From positions 1-21,484 of IMG/VR virus record IMGVR_UViG_3300037839_000907: 21,484 nucleotides of DNA; one strand, 5' to 3'. Positions 1,872 through 21,197 of the stretch are shown one piece after another (within the stretch, counting starts at the first letter, position 1; every line of letters begins with the position of its first letter). Made by a program: the position numbers and the translations under genes. Under the pieces are notes generated by a model. The model had not been told where the DNA came from. It made no database searches and saw nothing but the letters and a program-made list of their open reading frames with translations. The DNA is from a virus.

Positions 1872-2723
1872 TTACTTAATATTTTTTTCACCTTCAACTT
1901 GTTTAGCTTCAGTTTCTTCTTCTTTATTAAACATTACATAATTATGAATTGTTATCATGTAATCTTCTGCTAGCGCTGCTGTTTGCTGTAAAAATGGTTC
2001 TGTTAGATTTTCTTTAACCATTGGATCATTTAATTTATTTAAAATGTTTTGAGCGTGAACTTGAATTGAAGTGATAGAACCAACTATCATACCATAAAAA
2101 TCTTCTTTGTAATCTTCTAGATCTTCAATTTCTTCTGCTTGAGATAAGGAAGCGTCAATTTTAAGAAGTTCAACTTGATCAAATTCTGTTTCGCCATCCC
2201 ATTCATAACTCTCATTTTCATAATCTGAGCCTTGTGCTTTTTTAAGAGCTTCTTGAGTTGGTCTATCTTTTGATCCTGGTTTTGCTGGACGATAATTTTT
2301 GCCCATCCTTTTTTTCTTTTGTTGAATGTTATACCAAAGACCTTTATTCTTAGCTTGAACATCTATTTCTAAAGTGACTTCTTCTTCGTTTTGAACTGAA
2401 CCACAATTTGGTTTACCACATGATCCTGTGATTTTACTAACTGGTTTTGCGCTCCACATTTTGCAACTCCAATAATTTGCTTTATATTTTGGACCAGGAT
2501 TATCGCAACCGTGTCTTGCTCTGTAAGCTTTGCGTCTTTCGGGATTATCTCTTTTGATAGACATATTTGGATCACCGAAAGTAACTTTTACAATATTACC
2601 TTTATCGTTCTTTACATAGACACCAAATTTCTTTTTACTGCCAGAGGGTAATCTAAAAGGTTTATTAAGGGGAGCTTTACCTTTTTTTGCTGCTTGAATA
2701 TCGTTGGTAAAATCAATTTCCAT
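1872..2723 (-). CDS. Conserved phage protein with a basic, Cys/His-containing N-terminal domain
   Basis: This 283-residue protein starts at an ATG in an AT-rich leader. Residues about 20-92 form a basic domain with the blocks KPFRLPSGSKKKFGVYVK, VTFGDPNMSIKRDNPERR and NYWSCKMW. I recall this domain from uncharacterised proteins of marine T4-like phages and algal viruses. H71, C73, C87, C102 and C107 could bind zinc. The C-terminal half (about 150-283) is acidic and predicted helical, ending in a Lys/Glu-rich tail. There is no signal peptide or membrane segment. It stands alone on the minus strand, divergent from the RNA and nrdA to its right. Nucleic-acid or capsid-core binding is possible but only inferred; no enzymatic motif is seen. 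Confidence 0.75.
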   Translation of the reverse strand: MEIDFTNDIQAAKKGKAPLNKPFRLPSGSKKKFGVYVKNDKGNIVKVTFGDPNMSIKRDNPERRKAYRARHGCDNPGPKYKANYWSCKMWSAKPVSKITGSCGKPNCGSVQNEEEVTLEIDVQAKNKGLWYNIQQKKKRMGKNYRPAKPGSKDRPTQEALKKAQGSDYENESYEWDGETEFDQVELLKIDASLSQAEEIEDLEDYKEDFYGMIVGSITSIQVHAQNILNKLNDPMVKENLTEPFLQQTAALAEDYMITIHNYVMFNKEEETEAKQVEGEKNIK

Positions 2724-2750: not shown

Positions 2751-2779
2751 TTGACAAACTTACAATAAAAAGATACTAT
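2751..2779 (+). promoter_or_regulatory. Sigma70-type promoter for the structured RNA / nrdA leader
   Basis: A perfect -35 hexamer TTGACA (2751-2756) is followed after 17 bases by TACTAT (2774-2779), a 4/6 match to the -10 consensus. The start point would be about 2786, just ahead of the folded region and about 460 bases before nrdA. A perfect -35 with a 17-base spacer is rare by chance in such AT-rich DNA. Confidence 0.6.
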
Positions 2780-2785
2780 AACTAT

Positions 2786-3085
2786 ACATAGCTTCCTATT
2801 AAAGCAGTTTTGTGAGTTGTCAAATAAATTCACTAGTAACTTAGCTCCGCGATGGCAACGTCTTCGAAGGCTGACGACCATTAAAATATTGCTTGTCTAA
2901 AAGCTTGCAATGAAATGTAGGTGTAAGGTACAGCAAAATGCACAGGAATTACCAACCGCGTTCCTATAAATGCTGTAGCCATTCTTTGGAAGAAACGCCA
3001 AAGATACAGGAGTCAAAAGAAAAGTGGGCGAAGATACTATTTACACCTTTATAAATATACATTTATGAGGTAAAGCCTTCTAGGA
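2786..3085 (+). ncRNA. Unassigned structured RNA or long nrdA leader element with possible pseudoknot
   Basis: There is no credible coding frame here, yet perfect helices are frequent. They are: 2852-2855/2878-2881 stacked under 2859-2862/2873-2876; 2888-2892/2907-2911; a long-range closing helix AGGTGTAA/TTACACCT (2919-2926/3041-3048); inside it TACAGCA/TGCTGTA (2929-2935/2971-2977) carrying AGGAA/TTCCT (2944-2948/2961-2965), and TCTTTGG/CCAAAGA (2983-2989/2998-3004); and ATAAAT/ATTTAT (3051-3056/3061-3066). The loop of the first hairpin (GAAGGCT, 2866-2872) is a perfect 7-base complement of AGCCTTC at 3074-3080, a classic pseudoknot. G+C is also higher than in the flanks. It follows a good promoter and precedes nrdA, so it is either a separate RNA or a cis-regulator of the reductase. 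It matches no riboswitch, ribozyme or RNase P signature I know. The ends are estimates. Confidence 0.6.
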
Positions 3086-3245
3086 TATCAAAGAAAAGTT
3101 AATATATATAAGAATCTGAAGATACATTAGTACACTAGAAATACTTTTATAGTATCAATGTTAATAAAATTTAATATTTTTCTTTTATTTTTTACAAAAG
3201 TGCTGTAATATCTTCTACTCAAGGAATAAGGAAGTTGTTTATATA
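3086..3245 (+). other. AT-rich leader between structured RNA and nrdA
   Basis: No gene is seen. The stretch is very AT-rich, with T-rich tracts at about 3174-3193 that lack a preceding GC stem, so no convincing terminator separates the RNA from nrdA. TTATAGTATC (3147-3156) is a perfect complement of GATACTATAA at 2772-2781, which overlaps the promoter -10. AAGGAAG (3228-3234) is the likely nrdA ribosome binding site, with a rather long 11-base gap to the ATG. Confidence 0.5.
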
Positions 3246-5492
3246 ATGAATGTTAAAAAAAGAAATAATGCTACTGAAAAATTTGACATAGAAAAAATTA
3301 ACAAAGTAATTAATTGGGCTATAGATGGATACTCTGGGGTAAGTTTAACAGATATAGAAATAAATGCAAAAATTAATATAACCGATGGAGTTCATACAAA
3401 AGAAATTCATAGCTTATTAATTGAAAGTGCAGCTAATTTAATTTCAGTAGAAAAACCAAACTATCAATATGTTGCGGCTAGACTTCTTAATTATCAATTA
3501 AGAAAAGATGTTTGGAAGGGTAAGCATGCTCCAAGACTTTCTGAATTTATAAATAATGGTTTAAAAAACAAAATCTATGATCCGATTATCCTAGAAAAAT
3601 ACACAGAAGATGAAATAAACAAACTAGGCGAAATTATAGATCACGAAAGAGACTTCATCTTTACCTATGCTGGTATAAAACAATTATGTGATAAATATTT
3701 AATAAAAAATAGAACCACCCAACAGATTTATGAAACTCCACAATTCGCTTACATATTGATATCTGCCTATGCATTTATTAATTATCCAACTGAGACTAGA
3801 TTATCTTATGTTAGAAAATTTTACGATGCTATCAGTAAACATAAAATAAATTTACCAACTCCAGTTATGGCAGGAGTAAGAACATCTAGTAAAAATTATG
3901 CAAGCTGTTGTTTAATTGGGGTAGATGACACAAGAGAAAGTATTACTGCTAGCGCTACAGCAGTTAGTATGGCTACAGCAAATAGATGTGGTATTGGGAT
4001 TGATGTTAGCAAAATTAGAGCAATTGGCGCACCAATTAAAAATGGAGAAGTCGTTCACACTGGTTTAATTCCATTCTTAAAAATTTATGAGAGTAGCGTA
4101 AAAGCTTGGCAACAAAATGGACTAAGAGGTGGAAGTGCAACTTGCAATATCCAATGGTGGCATTACGAAATTGAAGATATCATAGTATTAAAAAATAACG
4201 CTGGAACAGACGATAATAGAGTTCGCAAACTTGATTATACAGTTGGGATGAGTAAATTATTTTATGATAGAGTTTTAAAAGATGAAGATATTATGTTATT
4301 TAATACTGCCGAAGTACCAGAGCTTTATGAAGCTTGGGGAACAAAAGACTTTGATAAGGTTTATAAAGAGTGTGAATCCAAGAAACTAAAAATTAAAAAG
4401 AAAATTTCTGCGCGTAAATTATTCTCCCTTATAATAAAAGAAAGAGTTGAGACTGGAAGAATTTATATTCTAAATGTAGATCATGCTAATAATCACGGGG
4501 CATGGTCTGATAAAGTAACTATGAGCAATCTTTGCACAGAAGTTATTCACCCTACAATTCCACTTAATGATTACCATGATAAAGATGCAGAAATTGGCAT
4601 GTGTATTCTTTCGGCAGTCAACATGTTAGAAGTAAAAAATTGGCAGGATCTAGAAAAAGTTTGTGATTTAATTGTAAGATTCCTTGAAGAAATTATAGAT
4701 ATCCAAGACTACTTTAATACTGCTGCTGAAAATTTTGCCAAAAAGCGTAGAAGTCTTGGAGTTGGAATTACTAATCTCGCAGCTTTTCTTGCTAAAAATG
4801 AATTAAAATATAATTCAGATAAGTCTCTTTCAGTAATAGATGAATGGATGGAGCATTTTCAATACTATCTTTTGAAGAGCAGTTGCCAATTATCTAAAGA
4901 AAAAGGCAGATGTGAAAAGTTTGAAAATACAAAGTACTCTAAAGGCATCTTGCCAATAGATACATACAAAGATAAAGTAGATGAACTAGTCAAAAGAAAA
5001 CTATCACTTGATTGGGAGAAGCTAAGAAAAGATATCAAAGAATTTGGATTAAGACATTCTACATTATCTTCCTGCATGCCTTGTGAGAGTAGTTCTGTAA
5101 TTCAATCTTCTACAAATGGTGTTGAACCTATCCGTAGTCTTATCACTTATAAAACAAGTAAAATGGGTAAACTTCCAGTTATGGTTCCAGGAATTGGGAG
5201 ATATGATCATAATTATGAATTAGCTTTTGATTTTAAAGACAATTTAGGCTTATTAAAAATAAATGCAGTAATTCAAAAATATATTGATATGGCTATTTCT
5301 ACTAATGTGTATTATAATTATAGTCATTATGATAACCATATATTACCAGATAGCAAAGTTATGAAAGAGATAATGTATGCTTATAGCCTTGGACTAATTA
5401 GTTTGTATTATAATAATACAGACGATGGAGATAAAGAGCAGTCTATGACACAAAAAGAAGATGACTGCGCTAGTGGAGCATGTAAATTATGA
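3246..5492 (+). CDS. nrdA: Class Ia ribonucleoside-diphosphate reductase, alpha subunit
   Basis: The enzyme reduces ribonucleoside diphosphates to deoxyribonucleotides in the cytoplasm, with NrdB supplying the radical. At 748 residues it matches E. coli NrdA (761). An ATP-cone-like segment fills residues about 1-90, so allosteric control by ATP/dATP is likely. Active-site residues are present by alignment from memory: C221 (E. coli C225), the N428-L-C430-T-E432 block, C453 (C462), and the radical-path pair Y721-Y722. The C-terminal DDCASGACKL carries the swinging-arm cysteine pair C741/C746, almost as in E. coli. The stop overlaps the nrdB start by 4 bases (ATGA), indicating translational coupling. 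The 5' leader is long and structured. Phages of this size often carry their own reductase. Identification is secure. Confidence 0.97.
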   Translation: MNVKKRNNATEKFDIEKINKVINWAIDGYSGVSLTDIEINAKINITDGVHTKEIHSLLIESAANLISVEKPNYQYVAARLLNYQLRKDVWKGKHAPRLSEFINNGLKNKIYDPIILEKYTEDEINKLGEIIDHERDFIFTYAGIKQLCDKYLIKNRTTQQIYETPQFAYILISAYAFINYPTETRLSYVRKFYDAISKHKINLPTPVMAGVRTSSKNYASCCLIGVDDTRESITASATAVSMATANRCGIGIDVSKIRAIGAPIKNGEVVHTGLIPFLKIYESSVKAWQQNGLRGGSATCNIQWWHYEIEDIIVLKNNAGTDDNRVRKLDYTVGMSKLFYDRVLKDEDIMLFNTAEVPELYEAWGTKDFDKVYKECESKKLKIKKKISARKLFSLIIKERVETGRIYILNVDHANNHGAWSDKVTMSNLCTEVIHPTIPLNDYHDKDAEIGMCILSAVNMLEVKNWQDLEKVCDLIVRFLEEIIDIQDYFNTAAENFAKKRRSLGVGITNLAAFLAKNELKYNSDKSLSVIDEWMEHFQYYLLKSSCQLSKEKGRCEKFENTKYSKGILPIDTYKDKVDELVKRKLSLDWEKLRKDIKEFGLRHSTLSSCMPCESSSVIQSSTNGVEPIRSLITYKTSKMGKLPVMVPGIGRYDHNYELAFDFKDNLGLLKINAVIQKYIDMAISTNVYYNYSHYDNHILPDSKVMKEIMYAYSLGLISLYYNNTDDGDKEQSMTQKEDDCASGACKL

Positions 5493-6553
5493 AAAGTGTA
5501 TTAAATTTTAAAAATGTAGATTTTACTAAACAACCATTGTTTCTTGGCGAAGATTTAAATTTGCAAAGATACGATAGGTTTAAGTATCCAATATTTTTTG
5601 AGCTATTCAAAAAGCAAAACGAAAACTTCTGGTGGCCTCATGAGATTGCTTTAGGAAAAGATAGAAGCGATTATAAGAATTTAACTGATACAGAAAGATT
5701 TGTATTTGATAGTAATTTAAGATTTCAAACTCTTGGTGATAGTATGTTATCTAGAAGTATACATTCATTAAAAGACTATGTGAGTAATCCAGAACTTGAA
5801 ATATGTATGAACACTTGGGCTCAATTTGAAGGTATTCATAGCTACTCTTACTCTTATCTTTTAAATAATGTTCATCCAGATCCTACAAAATTTTTTGATA
5901 GTATAATGGAAGATAAAGAAATAACAAGTCGCGCTCAATTGATTAGAGATAATTTCGATAAAATTCTTGGTAGCGATGAGAAAAAAGATGTTAAACAAAA
6001 GATTTTTGACGCTATTCTTTCTATTAATGTAATGGAAGGACTTGTATTTTATGTTTCTTTTGCTTGTTCTTTCTATTTTGGATATCGTGGTAAGATGGAA
6101 GGCAACTCTAAAATTATAAAATTCATTCAAAGAGATGAAGCTTTGCATTTTGCTACCTCTCAAAATCTCTTGAAGATACTTCGTGATGAAGATAAAGAAG
6201 GTTTTACGTCTATTGTAAAGAAAAATGAAGATAAGATCTATGCTTTCTATGAACAAGCCGCAAAGAATGAAAGTGAATGGTCTCAATATCTATTTAGTAA
6301 AGGTAGTTTACTTGGATTAAATGCTGATGTTTTAGATGGCTACTCCAAGTGGCTTTGTGATAGTAGACTAAGAAGCTTAGGATATAAGAAGATATTTAAT
6401 CAAAAAGATAATCCTATCGCTGGTTGGCATGATAGCTATTTAGACAGTAGTAAAGTACAAGTTGCGCCACAAGAAACAGAGATATCTAGTTATAAAGTCG
6501 GCGCAAGGAAGACAGACATAGAAGATAAAGATTTTGGTGATTTAAAGCTGTAA
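5489..6553 (+). CDS. nrdB: Class Ia ribonucleoside-diphosphate reductase, beta subunit
   Basis: This is the 354-residue partner of the upstream alpha subunit, holding the di-iron/tyrosyl-radical cofactor. All ligands can be placed: D84 (TLGD), E114 and H117 (FEGIH), E183 (VMEG), E217 and H220 (RDEALH), with the radical tyrosine Y121 in SYSY. The VQVAPQE-E-SSY motif near the end and the acidic, hydrophobic C-terminus (DFGDLKL) that docks into NrdA are present. The closest fold is the E. coli NrdB (class Ia) type rather than NrdF. It overlaps nrdA by 4 bases and is surely co-translated. No intron or homing endonuclease interrupts it, unlike some T4-type nrdB genes. Confidence 0.97.
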   Translation: MKSVLNFKNVDFTKQPLFLGEDLNLQRYDRFKYPIFFELFKKQNENFWWPHEIALGKDRSDYKNLTDTERFVFDSNLRFQTLGDSMLSRSIHSLKDYVSNPELEICMNTWAQFEGIHSYSYSYLLNNVHPDPTKFFDSIMEDKEITSRAQLIRDNFDKILGSDEKKDVKQKIFDAILSINVMEGLVFYVSFACSFYFGYRGKMEGNSKIIKFIQRDEALHFATSQNLLKILRDEDKEGFTSIVKKNEDKIYAFYEQAAKNESEWSQYLFSKGSLLGLNADVLDGYSKWLCDSRLRSLGYKKIFNQKDNPIAGWHDSYLDSSKVQVAPQETEISSYKVGARKTDIEDKDFGDLKL

Positions 6554-9676: not shown

Positions 9677-10062
9677 GGGCCCGAATTGGTTTCGATTTTA
9701 GAGATATGAATTAAAATGCAAGTGGAGGTTGAATCGTGGACTCCTTAAAAAGTTTCAATTATATTAACTGCCAAAACAGCAAAATATAAAGGTCATATTT
9801 CAGCAAGAGTTTCTCTTGTTGAGTTGACCGCTTCTGTAGCTTAAGTTACAGCGTAATACCCATGACGCATCTATTGGGATATTGCGTAATTAGATGTTTG
9901 AGTATAGTAAGTTTTTTTATTCTTATTATATTCAATATCAAAAATAAAATCGCTGAGTATGTTTGTTCTTTATCTATACAAAGCTAAAAACAAAAAGAGC
10001 TAAACTTGTAGTATTTTAATTTGGATTTTTAAAAGACCGCAGTTCAACTCTGCGCGGGTCCA
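9677..10062 (+). ncRNA. ssrA: tmRNA (transfer-messenger RNA), phage-encoded
   Basis: This 386-base RNA frees stalled ribosomes by adding a tag to unfinished proteins, working with host SmpB and alanyl-tRNA synthetase. The ends form a tRNA-like half: GGGCCCG (9677-9683) pairs fully with CGGGTCC (10055-10061; one G-U), followed by discriminator A (10062), with CCA not encoded. The T arm is CGCAG-TTCAACT-CTGCG (10038-10054). The typical GGTTTCGA lies near the 5' end and a conserved TAAxCxTGTAGTA-like block lies near 9999-10015. The resume codon is probably GCC at 9770, after TTAACT, giving a 24-residue tag that starts AKTAKYKG and ends ELTASVA before TAA (9842-9844). The tag end differs from the usual bacterial ALAA. 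A GGAG/CTCC pairing at about 9724-9744 fits PK1. Identity is firm; the exact resume codon is less so. Confidence 0.92.
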
Positions 10063-10064
10063 AG

Positions 10065-10274
10065 TTATTTAAATAGTTTAAAGTCTTTTTTGTATACGAA
10101 TATATTTTTCGCACCCAACCCATTTACATCATTATTAATATAGGTATAACAAAGGCAAGGATACTGCTCTGGTTGATTTATGCTAGGATTATGAGGTAAT
10201 ACTAAATAACTACTTTTAAAGGTATCTATATGTTTTTTAAATTGATTCTGAGACTTTATTAATTTAAATGCCAT
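10065..10274 (-). CDS. Small hypothetical protein (69 residues)
   Basis: The ATG at 10274 overlaps the end of purA by 11 bases, so it is probably translated by coupling to it. The product begins MAFKLIKSQNQFKKHID and contains a Pro/Cys-rich centre (LPHNPSINQPEQYPCLCY) and a basic end. No family is recognised. Its stop lies only 2 bases from the mature 3' end of the convergent tmRNA, leaving no room for separate terminators. Confidence 0.55.
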   Translation of the reverse strand: MAFKLIKSQNQFKKHIDTFKSSYLVLPHNPSINQPEQYPCLCYTYINNDVNGLGAKNIFVYKKDFKLFK

Positions 10275-11259
10275 TTCTATTACCAGAGAATATTATTTCA
10301 CAATAGTCCTTAAGCTCACTAATAATATACTCTTCCATAGAAGTAAAATCAATAAAATCTATATGGTTAGGGCCATATTCATTGTCTGTTATTATCTTAT
10401 ATTTATTAATGTCTTGTAGAATATCGCATTTATTAATAATCAATTTATTTGTTCCAGAAATCTTAATAGCTTGTTTTAAATGGTTTATCCTTAACCAATT
10501 TACAATTCTTTTACGACCAGTAGTAGAACCAAATTCTTTTCCTAGTTCAATTATCTTATTAAGGTCTTCATCATTCCATAATGATTCTGGGAATAAAGGG
10601 TCTACTCCACTTTTAGTATCATAGATTTTAGTTACTCCAATAATGTCTCTAATTTTCTTAGGACTGAATCCAAGTGAGCAAGCATTATATGGCAAGGTTT
10701 CACTACTTGTAACATATGGATAATCTCCATAATTAATATCTAACCAAAAACTCTGAGCACCTTCACAAAGAATTTTTCCAGAAAGCTCTCCGTCCCAAAT
10801 GTACTTCTTATCCAAATATGAACCTGCTAGTTTTCCAACTCTAAGCATTTTATCTGCATATGCTGGAGCAATGCCTTGACCAGTTGTTCCAAGTTTAGGT
10901 TTTAAAAATTGAAGATCATATTGAATATGCTTTTCAGTAATGATGTGAGCCTTTGGACTTACCTTGATTAAAGAAGTATCAAAACCCTCTTTCTTTAAAT
11001 ATTCTATTTCATCAAAAAATTTATCAATGTTGATAACGCAATTTGGACCAATGATACTAAGTTTATTTTGAAAAACGCCACAAGGAATAATATGAGTTTT
11101 ATATTTCTTATCATTAATATAAACTGTATGACCTGCGTTGGGGCCACCATTCCAACGACATACCATATCATAATCTTTAGCAATAGCATTACTTATTTTA
11201 CCTTTGCCCTCATCTCCCCAAGCTAAACCAAAAATAATATCAACAAAATCAATTGGCAT
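10264..11259 (-). CDS. purA: Adenylosuccinate synthetase, short form
   Basis: The enzyme joins IMP and aspartate using GTP, the first step from IMP to AMP. Motifs in order: GLAWGDEGKGK (11-21), the P-loop-like start with catalytic D16; GGPNAGHT (38-45) with catalytic H44; GTTGQGIAPAY (124-134) for IMP; CEGAQ and YPYVTSS (180-186); TTGRKR (246-251), the aspartate-binding loop; and NKCD (276-279) for guanine. At 331 residues it is about 100 shorter than E. coli PurA (432), like archaeal and phage forms. PurZ of 2-aminoadenine (Z) phages has this length but, as I recall, lacks the catalytic Asp, so the retained D16 favours true PurA. A dGMP-using PurZ0-type variant is not excluded. It overlaps both neighbours by 11 bases. 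Confidence 0.88.
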   Translation of the reverse strand: MPIDFVDIIFGLAWGDEGKGKISNAIAKDYDMVCRWNGGPNAGHTVYINDKKYKTHIIPCGVFQNKLSIIGPNCVINIDKFFDEIEYLKKEGFDTSLIKVSPKAHIITEKHIQYDLQFLKPKLGTTGQGIAPAYADKMLRVGKLAGSYLDKKYIWDGELSGKILCEGAQSFWLDINYGDYPYVTSSETLPYNACSLGFSPKKIRDIIGVTKIYDTKSGVDPLFPESLWNDEDLNKIIELGKEFGSTTGRKRIVNWLRINHLKQAIKISGTNKLIINKCDILQDINKYKIITDNEYGPNHIDFIDFTSMEEYIISELKDYCEIIFSGNRNGI

Positions 11260-13045: not shown

Positions 13046-13728
13046 AGCTTATGTAATTCTATTTTACCTTTTTTATTTATAGTAACATAAGAACATTCTT
13101 TTTCACAAAAGCTACCAGTATTTATGTATTTGTCTGTATGTTCTGGAAGATGAGTATGTCCACATATTATAGTATCGTAGTTATTCATTTCAATATACTT
13201 GAGCGCATTTTTTTTAACATCAGAACTTTTTTCAACAAAATCATTTGTTCTAGCTTTAAAGAACCTAAAGAAGTCATCTGCAAATGGGGTATACTTTCTA
13301 ACAAAATAATAGCATCTAATAATAAAATTAGAAAGATGTTTGTATTTCGTGAAGTAAATATCGAAAACATCTCCATGGATTATTAATATTTTTTTACCTT
13401 TTAATTCTATTTCATGCTCATCTGCACAATGAAATCCTAATAGGATACTCATGAAGTCTGCTTTTAAAAAGCAATGATTGCCGATTAGATAAATTATATT
13501 ACTTTTTTTAGATAGCTTTCTTAGTTTAGACAAAACTTTCCAATGGTCTTTTTTAAGTCTGTGCAGGTTGTGATGATCAAATAAATCACCAGCAATTACT
13601 ATATTTTTTGCTTTATTCTTTTTAAGAACTTTTAATAATACTTCTGGTTTACAATCTTTGTCACCTAAATGGACATCAGAAATAATCAAATAATCAAAGT
13701 TTTCCATGAGCAAAACTTTCGTAAGCAT
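13042..13728 (-). CDS. Metallophosphoesterase, LpxH-like
   Basis: A calcineurin-type phosphoesterase of 228 residues with two metal sites: D18 and H20 (SDVHLG), D48 (GDLFD), N84-H85 (GNH), H118 (HGD) and H191/H193 (GHTH). The overall form is close to UDP-2,3-diacylglucosamine diphosphatase (LpxH) of lipid A synthesis and related phosphatases. The usual GNHD is GNHCF here. Between 125 and 170 lies a basic, aromatic insertion (NFIIRCYYFVRKYTPFADDFFRFF) where LpxH has its membrane-associating cap. An alternative ATG at 13707 (MENFDYL) would cut the overlap with the upstream reductase gene from 35 to 14 bases and is perhaps the better start. Substrate unknown; lipid or nucleotide pyrophosphate is possible. 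Confidence 0.85.
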   Translation of the reverse strand: MLTKVLLMENFDYLIISDVHLGDKDCKPEVLLKVLKKNKAKNIVIAGDLFDHHNLHRLKKDHWKVLSKLRKLSKKSNIIYLIGNHCFLKADFMSILLGFHCADEHEIELKGKKILIIHGDVFDIYFTKYKHLSNFIIRCYYFVRKYTPFADDFFRFFKARTNDFVEKSSDVKKNALKYIEMNNYDTIICGHTHLPEHTDKYINTGSFCEKECSYVTINKKGKIELHKL

Positions 13729-14803
13729 TATTTGAAGTGGTCCTTACAGCTTGAATTTTACCTTCCCATAATCCACCACGCATTTCTTCTATGGTTCTAA
13801 ATCCTAGATAACTCATCGTACTTCTTAAGCCATTTGTAAAGTCATAGACTATATCCTCTATAGTCTTGTCTTGAATCAATGGGATAAAAGTTTTGTCTCC
13901 TTCTACAAAGAGGTTCTTTTTGGTTCCATCATGTAATTCATAATCTTCTACAACATCTTTACTTGCCATACCTCTATATATCGCAAATAGTTTACCATCT
14001 TTTTCTACAATATCTTCTTCATCGACTACATCGCTTAAACCAGCAAAAATTCTACCACAAATAACTCCATCTGCCCCACTTGCAATAGCTTTAGCTAGGT
14101 CTCTTGGATTTCTAATTCCACCATCTGCTAAAATACTAGGTCTATTTTCTTCTTTAGGATTCTCTTGTCTAAAATGATCTAAATTAGCTAATTGATAATT
14201 TCTAACAGCATTCCAAGCATAAGATAATCCAGTGACACTTGGACATCCTATACCAGTTTTAATTTGAGTTAAACACATACTTCCTGGGCCAATAAGATGT
14301 CTGAATCCATCTGCTTTTAAATTAGCTAATCTATGGACGCTGGCCTTAGTTAAAGTATTTCCAACAATAATATCTTGTTTATATTCCGATTGCTTATAAC
14401 ATATTAAAAAGTCTTCAACACTTTTAGCTAAACCATTAGCCGTATCTAAAAAGAATATATCTGTATATTTCGACAGTATTTCAATTCTTTCTAATGCATC
14501 TTTTAATCCGATAGCATTAATGCAAAAATTACTTTGGTCTTTAATATATTTTGCTTTTCGAGCTTGCTCTAATGGACTCATAAATCTATGAAGAACTCCA
14601 GCACCACCAATTTGGTTCATTTTTATACAAGATTTTGCTGATGATACAGTATCCATTGGAGACAGTATTATTGGGATATCAATATATTTATTTTTTGAAA
14701 TTTTTGTGATGGTACAGACTTCTTTTCTGGAAGATACATTCGAAAAATTTGGTAATAACGCTATATCATCGTATCCAAGAGCTTCTTCAAATTGTATTTT
14801 CAT
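13694..14803 (-). CDS. GMP reductase / IMP dehydrogenase family enzyme without CBS domains
   Basis: A 369-residue TIM-barrel enzyme. Seen: SPMDTV (48-53), NAIGL, FLDTANG (118-124), the phosphate and catalytic loop GPGSMCLTQIKTGIGCPS (172-189) with C177, ADGGI (226-230), GADGVICG, the YRGMASK flap (276-282) and GLRSTMSYLG (325-334). No CBS pair interrupts the barrel, which fits GMP reductase (about 347 residues) better than bacterial IMP dehydrogenase (about 488). The flap Arg-Tyr pair diagnostic of IMP dehydrogenase is not seen, and EGDKTFIPL resembles the GMP reductase EGKTVxxP block. The N-terminal half and C-terminal ES-x-x-H resemble IMP dehydrogenase, so the direction of reaction is open. 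The stop lies in the phosphoesterase gene. An SD (GGAGGA) 11 bases upstream fixes the start. Confidence 0.85.
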   Translation of the reverse strand: MKIQFEEALGYDDIALLPNFSNVSSRKEVCTITKISKNKYIDIPIILSPMDTVSSAKSCIKMNQIGGAGVLHRFMSPLEQARKAKYIKDQSNFCINAIGLKDALERIEILSKYTDIFFLDTANGLAKSVEDFLICYKQSEYKQDIIVGNTLTKASVHRLANLKADGFRHLIGPGSMCLTQIKTGIGCPSVTGLSYAWNAVRNYQLANLDHFRQENPKEENRPSILADGGIRNPRDLAKAIASGADGVICGRIFAGLSDVVDEEDIVEKDGKLFAIYRGMASKDVVEDYELHDGTKKNLFVEGDKTFIPLIQDKTIEDIVYDFTNGLRSTMSYLGFRTIEEMRGGLWEGKIQAVRTTSNNAYESFAHGKL

Positions 14804-20027: not shown

Positions 20028-21197
20028 TTAAGAAATATTTCTTTTTTTAATAATTAATTTTCCAGTTCCGCCACCTTTTATTACATTATCCGCATAAATG
20101 AAAACGGGCTTTCCTTCGAAAGTTGATGTCCATCCAATTACAAAATTTTTCTTGCGATAAATTTTTAAATTAGCATTTGAACTAGTAAAAATATTTCCTG
20201 CTACATTTGGCAAACTCCCTAAAAAATCAGCTCTAATTATCCTTGAACATGACGAAAATGCGCTCTCACCAATATCTGTTACACTTTTGCCAACTGTTAG
20301 ATTAGTTACAAGAGAGCAGCTTTCAAAAGCTCTGCCCCCAATACTAGTAACGCTATCTGGAATAATTAGAGCGCCAGTTAATTTAGTGCAATTATAAAAT
20401 GCCTTAAACCCAATACTACTTACGCTATTTCCAATATTTATACCGCTTAGATTAGGAGCTGATTGGAATGAATTCTCGCGAACAATCGTAACCGTATTAG
20501 GAACAGTATATGAAATTACATTTTTTTTAAGAGGATATTGTATGAGTTCCGTTTGAGATTTATTAAAAAGAACTCCATCAACACTAGCATAGTTTAGATT
20601 TGAAGGATCTACATTAAAACCAGTTAAACTAGAACATTGTGAGAATGGAGCACTTCCTATGCTAGTGACACCACTTGGAATAGTGATACCGCTAAAATTT
20701 CCACATTGTTGAAATGCAGAGCTTCCAATAGTTTTTAGACCGCTACCGAGAGTAATAGTTTTTGCTGAATAATTATAAAAAAATGCACTGTTCCCAATAC
20801 TCGTCACGCTGTCAGGAATAGTTACGCTCTGCACAGCATCACAATGATAGAATCCATAGTCATCAATACTCGTCACAGTATTTGGGATTGTAATGGTACT
20901 GAACCTACATCGCTCGAATGTGCTATAGTTAATAGTTGTTATACCACTAGGGATATTAGCTTGAGTTAAAAATGTGCAATTATAAAAAGCAGACCCTCCA
21001 ATACTCGTCACGCTATTTGGGATTGTGATGCCCGTTAAACGACTTTCATAAAAAGCAGCAGTTTCAATACGAGTCACGCCAGAACCAATATTAGCACTTA
21101 TTAAAGTTAATGCTCGATTATAGCTTCCTTGAGTAATAACTGTATCAGTACTATTAGTTGGATCACCACTGCTATAATAAAATGTAGATAAAGCCAT
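20028..21197 (-). CDS. BspA-type leucine-rich repeat protein without signal peptide
   Basis: The 389-residue protein consists of about ten BspA-like (LRR_5) repeats of roughly 23 residues, with the form IPNSVTSIGGSAFYNC and IPDSVTSIGNSAF, from about residue 38 to 330, interrupted near 180-215 by a YASVDGVLFNKSQTELIQYP insert as in other BspA proteins. A closing GWTSTFEGKPVFIY block (about 353-366) and a Gly-rich basic tail (KGGGTGKLIIKKRNIS) follow. Because no signal peptide is seen, a virion surface protein or tail-fibre adhesin is more likely than an exported one. A TATAAT box is 3 bases before the ATG. Repeat family is certain; role inferred. Confidence 0.85.
   Translation of the reverse strand: MALSTFYYSSGDPTNSTDTVITQGSYNRALTLISANIGSGVTRIETAAFYESRLTGITIPNSVTSIGGSAFYNCTFLTQANIPSGITTINYSTFERCRFSTITIPNTVTSIDDYGFYHCDAVQSVTIPDSVTSIGNSAFFYNYSAKTITLGSGLKTIGSSAFQQCGNFSGITIPSGVTSIGSAPFSQCSSLTGFNVDPSNLNYASVDGVLFNKSQTELIQYPLKKNVISYTVPNTVTIVRENSFQSAPNLSGINIGNSVSSIGFKAFYNCTKLTGALIIPDSVTSIGGRAFESCSLVTNLTVGKSVTDIGESAFSSCSRIIRADFLGSLPNVAGNIFTSSNANLKIYRKKNFVIGWTSTFEGKPVFIYADNVIKGGGTGKLIIKKRNIS

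Follow-up and report, generated by a model that had tools for sequence, protein, structure and literature searches.

The region between positions 2786 and 3100 of the window (the whole stretch of DNA analysed, a fragment of an uncultivated virus genome of 21,484 bases) is, on comparative evidence, a conserved, non-coding, structured RNA gene. The evidence comprises conservation of the unit, covariation with at least one covarying pseudoknot, a promoter sequence, a standalone position, and two separated motifs, A and B, that change in lockstep between relatives. About an even chance is given to the reading that the molecule would be a standalone trans-acting scaffold on which a single partner, most likely a protein, would find two identical sites. 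It is rated here as a new RNA class with a distinctive signature, and not as a proven new mechanism.

The window also encodes a tmRNA, two tRNAs and genes of nucleotide metabolism, and the nearest NrdA among sequenced phages is found in Pelagibacter phages Mosig and HTVC008M (52% identity). Homologues of adenylosuccinate synthetase (10264-11259, minus strand) and IMP dehydrogenase/GMP reductase (13694-14803, minus strand) are present, and the occurrence of both on one phage fragment suggests remodelled purine synthesis. A protein of repeated TIPNSVTSIGxxAF units (20028-21197, minus strand), which by eye resembles BspA-type leucine-rich repeats, is possibly an adhesin or tail component judging from its sequence. 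The RNA region is placed between a divergent gene (1872-2723, minus strand) and nrdA. The features are as follows.

2751-2779, plus strand: sigma-70-like promoter TTGACA-17-TACTAT, 10 of 12 consensus matches, predicted start near 2786
2786-3100, plus strand: structured non-coding RNA, conserved unit of about 315 nt with homologues
2791-2805, plus strand: hairpin P1 (2791-2794/2802-2805), 4 of 4 pairs changed on both sides
2812-2833, plus strand: hairpin P2 (2812-2818/2827-2833), reached by 0 of 300 simulations
2834-2847, plus strand: 5' strand of long-range helix P3, pairing with 3026-3039; 12 of 13 pairs changed on both sides
2852-2881, plus strand: hairpin P4 (2852-2855/2878-2881 and 2859-2862/2873-2876), loop holding pseudoknot 1
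2866-2872, plus strand: 5' strand of pseudoknot 1, GAAGGCT; 0 of 10,000 permutations, 0 of 300 simulations
2888-2911, plus strand: hairpin P5 (2888-2892/2907-2911), 0 of 300 simulations
2917-2922, plus strand: 5' strand of pseudoknot 2, GTAGGT, pairing with 2951-2956 in the P7 loop
2929-2977, plus strand: P6 (2929-2935/2971-2977) and P7 (2944-2948/2961-2965), from covariation and tree-aware tests
2951-2956, plus strand: 3' strand of pseudoknot 2, from alignment and tree-aware test
2983-3004, plus strand: hairpin P8 (2983-2989/2998-3004), 97% paired, 0 of 300 simulations
3013-3025, plus strand: twin motif A, TCAAAAGAAAAGT, single-stranded in the consensus fold
3026-3039, plus strand: 3' strand of P3, same evidence as the 5' strand
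3045-3071, plus strand: hairpin P9, of variable length, probable, by eye
3074-3080, plus strand: 3' strand of pseudoknot 1, AGCCTTC, same tests as the 5' strand
3088-3099, plus strand: twin motif B, TCAAAGAAAAGT, single-stranded in the consensus fold, closing the conserved unit on the 3' side
3246-5492: nrdA
5489-6553: nrdB
9677-10063, plus strand: phage-encoded one-piece tmRNA, tmRNA model match of 116 bits

Relatives were collected from IMG/VR. A search with NrdA gave 80 loci, an iterated profile search recovered the RNA region in 45 of 81 loci, and pattern scans with conserved words together with a search using the neighbouring gene brought the total to 73 distinct relatives, of which 70 are full length; the yield of two later scans was small and of the same types. 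One weak model match (L344) was spurious and sits within the nrdB coding sequence. Neither blastn against 50,697 phage records (GenBank phages) nor a scan of 84,980 bacterial and archaeal genomes with two exact motif-pair patterns recovered a relative, and the family seems confined to one virus group. Long contigs with a more distant NrdA (77-80% identical) lack the RNA. When four RNA-positive long contigs were compared with three RNA-negative ones, 13 of the 84 genes shared by the RNA-positive contigs were also present in an RNA-negative one. The RNA-negative contigs thus share few genes with the RNA-bearing ones, which points to a difference between virus groups and not to loss within a group; as a route to a partner protein, the gene-content comparison held too many differences to be informative.

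The family has no counterpart in Rfam. None of 4227 Rfam 15 families matched over the RNA in the window and eight relatives at gathering thresholds, lax thresholds gave chance-level matches only in the window and relatives, and covariance models of tmRNA, RNase P RNA, 6S RNA, SRP RNA and group I intron did not match it. ARAGORN reported no tRNA and no tmRNA in 2786-3100, and a search of the open literature found nothing matching the family. The first-pass annotation, made from the window alone, had described an unassigned structured RNA with a possible pseudoknot that matched no nameable class, and both the Rfam results and the covariation described below bear it out.

The promoter that it had placed before the RNA is likewise present: TTGACA is retained in nearly all relatives, and the promoter moves together with the RNA. 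The RNA is probably transcribed during infection from this promoter of its own. Its 3' end is placed near 3100 from the point where sequence conservation stops, and the conserved unit reaches slightly past the earlier limit of 3085 to about 3100, at motif B. No terminator for the RNA was found in the sequence, and the RNA could therefore be cut from a longer transcript. A candidate resembling a T4 late promoter (TATAAATA at 3050-3057) was rejected, not being conserved. The stretch is gene-free as described, with no open reading frame of at least 50 amino acids overlapping 2786-3085; among the relatives there is no conserved open frame, and the alignment contains indels of various lengths.

The structure had been judged denser than expected by chance. 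The folding energy of the window sequence is moderately unusual (z = -2.18, with 4 of 200 shuffles as stable) and that of the minus strand is not (z = -0.35); single-sequence folding energy would on its own be weak evidence, and it is covariation that is strong. In an alignment of 25 relatives made from sequence only, 50 of the 74 proposed pairs show compensatory changes on both sides, the covariation in homologues that had been proposed as a check. Among these relatives 77% of cells are paired, compared with 63% in shuffles and 36-45% in slid controls, and on four of five covariation measures none of 500 shuffles reaches the real values. Tree-aware simulations were also run because kinship among sequences inflates covariation counts, with substitutions simulated 300 times along the tree from the inferred root and with the named helices as their scope. 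P2, P3a, P4a, P5, P7, P8 and pseudoknot 1 beat 300 of 300 simulations on both pairing and double changes, and P4b, P6 and the majority register of P3b beat all simulations on pairing and all but one on double changes, exact counts that are optimistic, as the choice of helices drew in part on these very sequences and a nested-helix model served to fit the 50-sequence alignment. The P3b majority register (3027-3034) is one column off the register of the window, owing to local misalignment. P1 is weaker (5/300 and 7/300 simulations reach its values), and P9 is not significant in this alignment, 41 of 300 simulations doing as well. Because the relatives form only a few clades, an untargeted all-pairs covariation scan gave no significant result once corrected.

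The central domain is closed by P3, in which 2834-2847 pairs with 3026-3039. Contiguous pairing in P3 extends from 5 to 19 pairs per sequence with compensatory changes, as in the variants TATCAATCC/GGATTGATA, TATCGATCC/GGATCGATA and CTTATTAGTTC/GAACTAATAGG, and the 19 contiguous pairs occur in one relative; for all the optimism of the counts, the compensatory pattern is obvious on inspection. The outer helix of P4 is paired in 97% of cells. Several relatives close P8 with a GNRA loop (GCC-GAAA-GGC, CCTC-GAAA-GAGG). At the P6/P7 junction (window 2944-2977) the strand linking P7 to P6 (ATAAG/ATAAA) is almost invariant, and a tetraloop-receptor contact between the P8 GNRA loop and this junction is conceivable. 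The perfect helices listed by the first-pass annotation are found at their positions in the window, and they fared differently among the relatives. The long-range helix 2919-2926/3041-3048 (AGGTGTAA/TTACACCT), around which it had nested the others, pairs at 8 of 8 positions in the window but is not conserved: 59.7% of cells pair, compared with 57.2% in shuffles, and this much pairing is reached in 73 of 300 tree-aware simulations. The 5' strand of the helix also shares bases with pseudoknot 2 (2917-2922).

The pairing of GAAGGCT with AGCCTTC, by contrast, covaries. It is complete in the window (7/7), and with flanking words as anchors the relatives show 12 variants of the 5' strand and 11 of the 3' strand; each sequence forms on average 6.88 of 7 pairs with its own partner and 5.2 of 7 with exchanged partners, a difference reached in none of 10,000 permutations. 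Pseudoknot 2 forms 5 of 6 pairs in the window and 6 of 6 in some relatives, with the variants GTAGCT/AGCTAC, GTGGCT/AGCCAC and GTGGAT/ATCCAC in the alignment. It is 91% paired, a value reached by 0 of 300 simulations, and its double changes are weaker (24/300). A third pseudoknot, in which the P1 loop would pair with the sequence preceding motif B (CCTA/TAGG, CCAA/TTGG), holds in many type 1 sequences and was rejected, being broken in two relatives (L217, L061).

Motif A lies just before the 3' strand of P3. A and B carry an identical 11-mer in all 70 full-length sequences. Among the 50 distinct sequences with a tree this 11-mer takes nine forms (CAAAGAAAAGT, TAAAGAAAAGT, CATTGGGAAGT, CATTGGGAAAT, CATTGGAAAGT, CACTGGGAAGT, CATTGGGAATT, CATTGGGAAGA and CAGGGAAAAAG), and the 15 single-site or 10 whole-motif changes on the tree are all concerted in A and B, with 0 of 50 sequences discordant. 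Repeated identical recognition elements under common selection, the mark of decoy-type RNAs, are thus found here. Motif A has one extra base after its first letter, which varies alone (L052, L127: CTCGATTGGG vs CTCATTGGG). The exact 9-mer TTGGGAAGT occurs in 19 type 2 contigs only as the twin copies in the RNA, apart from one contig that has a single stray copy instead.

Complements of the motifs were sought in the related contigs, which are fragments. The complement of TTGGGAAGT is absent from the 19 type 2 contigs, the type 1 11-mer has no conserved complementary site in 14 contigs, and a 14-mer search with two mismatches allowed gave no conserved complementary site in related contigs. In the phage tmRNA the complement of the twin motif occurs at chance level, and inside the RNA itself a comparison of close relatives with different motifs turned up no third change to match. 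Since A and B change in lockstep and have no conserved complement, the simplest inference is that both bind one outside partner and that neither copy is dispensable; a protein partner fits the missing complementary site.

The trans-acting scaffold would then work as follows. The sigma-70-type promoter would start the RNA at about 2786, and the transcript would fold into a compact scaffold in which long-range P3 closes the domain holding P4-P8. Two pseudoknots would lock it, pseudoknot 1 tying the P4 loop to the 3' part and pseudoknot 2 folding a single strand into the P7 loop. The scaffold would display A and B as two copies of one single-stranded recognition sequence, and in trans would hold its partner twice; this partner is most likely an RNA-binding protein from phage or host, and the RNA would serve as a decoy or form a dimeric RNP. 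The binding of both A and B by a single partner, the protein nature of that partner and the effect on the phage are points we infer. Put more broadly, the RNA may belong to a new class of phage RNA, in which a pseudoknotted scaffold would present one re-programmable recognition sequence twice. This sequence would evolve in step with a single partner, and the RNA would serve either as a guide with two seeds directed at a host molecule or as a bivalent decoy for a protein in host takeover; this broader statement is tentative and is given somewhat less than an even chance.

The genomic position bears on the proposal that the RNA is a riboswitch-like controller of ribonucleotide reductase. In the window and many relatives the promoter and RNA immediately precede nrdA and share its strand, the arrangement expected of a cis-acting nrdA leader or riboswitch. 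In another large group the RNA is beside a small gene near the tmRNA, away from the start of nrdA and on the strand opposite nrdAB, where it points at nrdB and no reading frame follows on its own strand; in other relatives a purA-like or another gene follows. The upstream neighbour is divergent in nearly every case. Several neighbourhoods and a divergent upstream gene argue for a freestanding RNA gene and not an nrdA leader, and the RNA-free contigs with NrdA 77-80% identical and the lack of an expression-platform terminator also speak against a leader, which is the least likely of the readings and is already largely refuted. Some cis effect is possible where nrdA follows the RNA, in the window and the second large group. 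Between the RNA and nrdA, the stretch 3100-3245 is AT-rich and contains words (GTACACT and TGTTAATAA) common to relatives with the RNA before nrdA, and it may serve as a control region belonging to nrdA itself. In the largest group the RNA and tmRNA genes are within about 0.3 kb and divergently transcribed, as in positions 96549-97548 of contig G050 (RNA 96549-96875, minus strand; tmRNA 97160-97548, plus strand) and in related contigs.

The main rival to the protein-binding scaffold is a base-pairing regulatory RNA, which is considered unlikely but deserves a real share of belief. A and B would be identical guide (seed) sequences for the same host or phage RNA or single-stranded DNA, and their lockstep changes would follow changes of the target. 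Perfect identity through about 10 changes is expected of two seeds with one target, both motifs are unpaired in the consensus fold, and the extra base of motif A, an A, varies as an unpaired bulge would. Against this stand the missing 9-nt (type 2) and 11-mer (type 1) sites, a tmRNA complement not above chance, and the purine-rich composition, which is unusual for seeds; the target could sit elsewhere in the genome or in the host. Quite unlikely is a purely structural or multimeric RNA comparable to ROOL, GOLLD or the phi29 packaging RNA, with A and B in RNA-RNA contacts. The present RNA is large, pseudoknotted and phage-encoded, and its fold is conserved more than its sequence; ROOL and GOLLD, described in PMC12286853 as large ornate RNAs that are often phage-linked, are reported there to form homo-oligomers. 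They resemble the present RNA in being phage-linked, highly structured, pseudoknotted, discovered by comparative genomics and open as to function, but they are much larger, Rfam searches gave no sequence or structure match to either family, and no self-complementary partner for A and B was seen inside the RNA. We know of no twin single-stranded motifs in ROOL or GOLLD. Very unlikely, finally, is that the repeats are DNA sites within the RNA gene, for example of an initiator or recombinase, with their identity reflecting a DNA-binding protein. They are direct repeats about 74 bases apart and the exact 9-mer is found almost nowhere else in type 2 contigs, but they are single-stranded in the fold and embedded in a structurally conserved unit, and no clear further copy or symmetry was seen. 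Among the three roles first suggested, a trans-acting RNA thus fits best, an ornate structural RNA keeps a small chance and a riboswitch is not supported.

The general kind, a structured phage RNA of unknown function, is already known from ROOL and GOLLD. CsrB/RsmZ-type decoys and dual-seed sRNAs (RNAIII, LhrC) carry several copies of one recognition sequence per RNA, mostly in hairpin loops and GGA- or pyrimidine-rich. By their repeated recognition sequence they may be regarded as work-alikes of the present RNA, in which the repeats are exactly two, single-stranded, purine-rich and lockstep-changing between phages. The glnA RNA (glutamine riboswitch) is linked to tmRNA in Melnitz-like and pelagibacter phages (PMC9004378). 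It is likewise a structured RNA, found in T4-like phages from aquatic habitats that are related by NrdA and encode a tmRNA; it is cis-regulatory and in Rfam, whereas the present RNA has no Rfam model and no fixed downstream gene. Bacterial tmRNA resembles it as a phage RNA with pseudoknots and as the neighbour gene in one large group, but the two are separate RNAs and the tmRNA model matches 9677-10063 only. The tmRNA of the window and of related contigs has a strongly conserved 24-residue tag, AKTAKYKGHISARVSLVEETASVA, which much exceeds the usual length and does not end in the common ALAA.

It is rare for a large structured phage RNA to have covariation-supported pseudoknots but no known relatives, and what such RNAs do is mostly an open question. 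The present one is defined enough for direct testing, with boundaries, promoter, fold, two mutable motifs and natural variants. That two separated 11-mers within a single RNA evolve in lockstep is unusual and points to one shared partner, and identifying this partner would show how these phages use non-coding RNA in infection.
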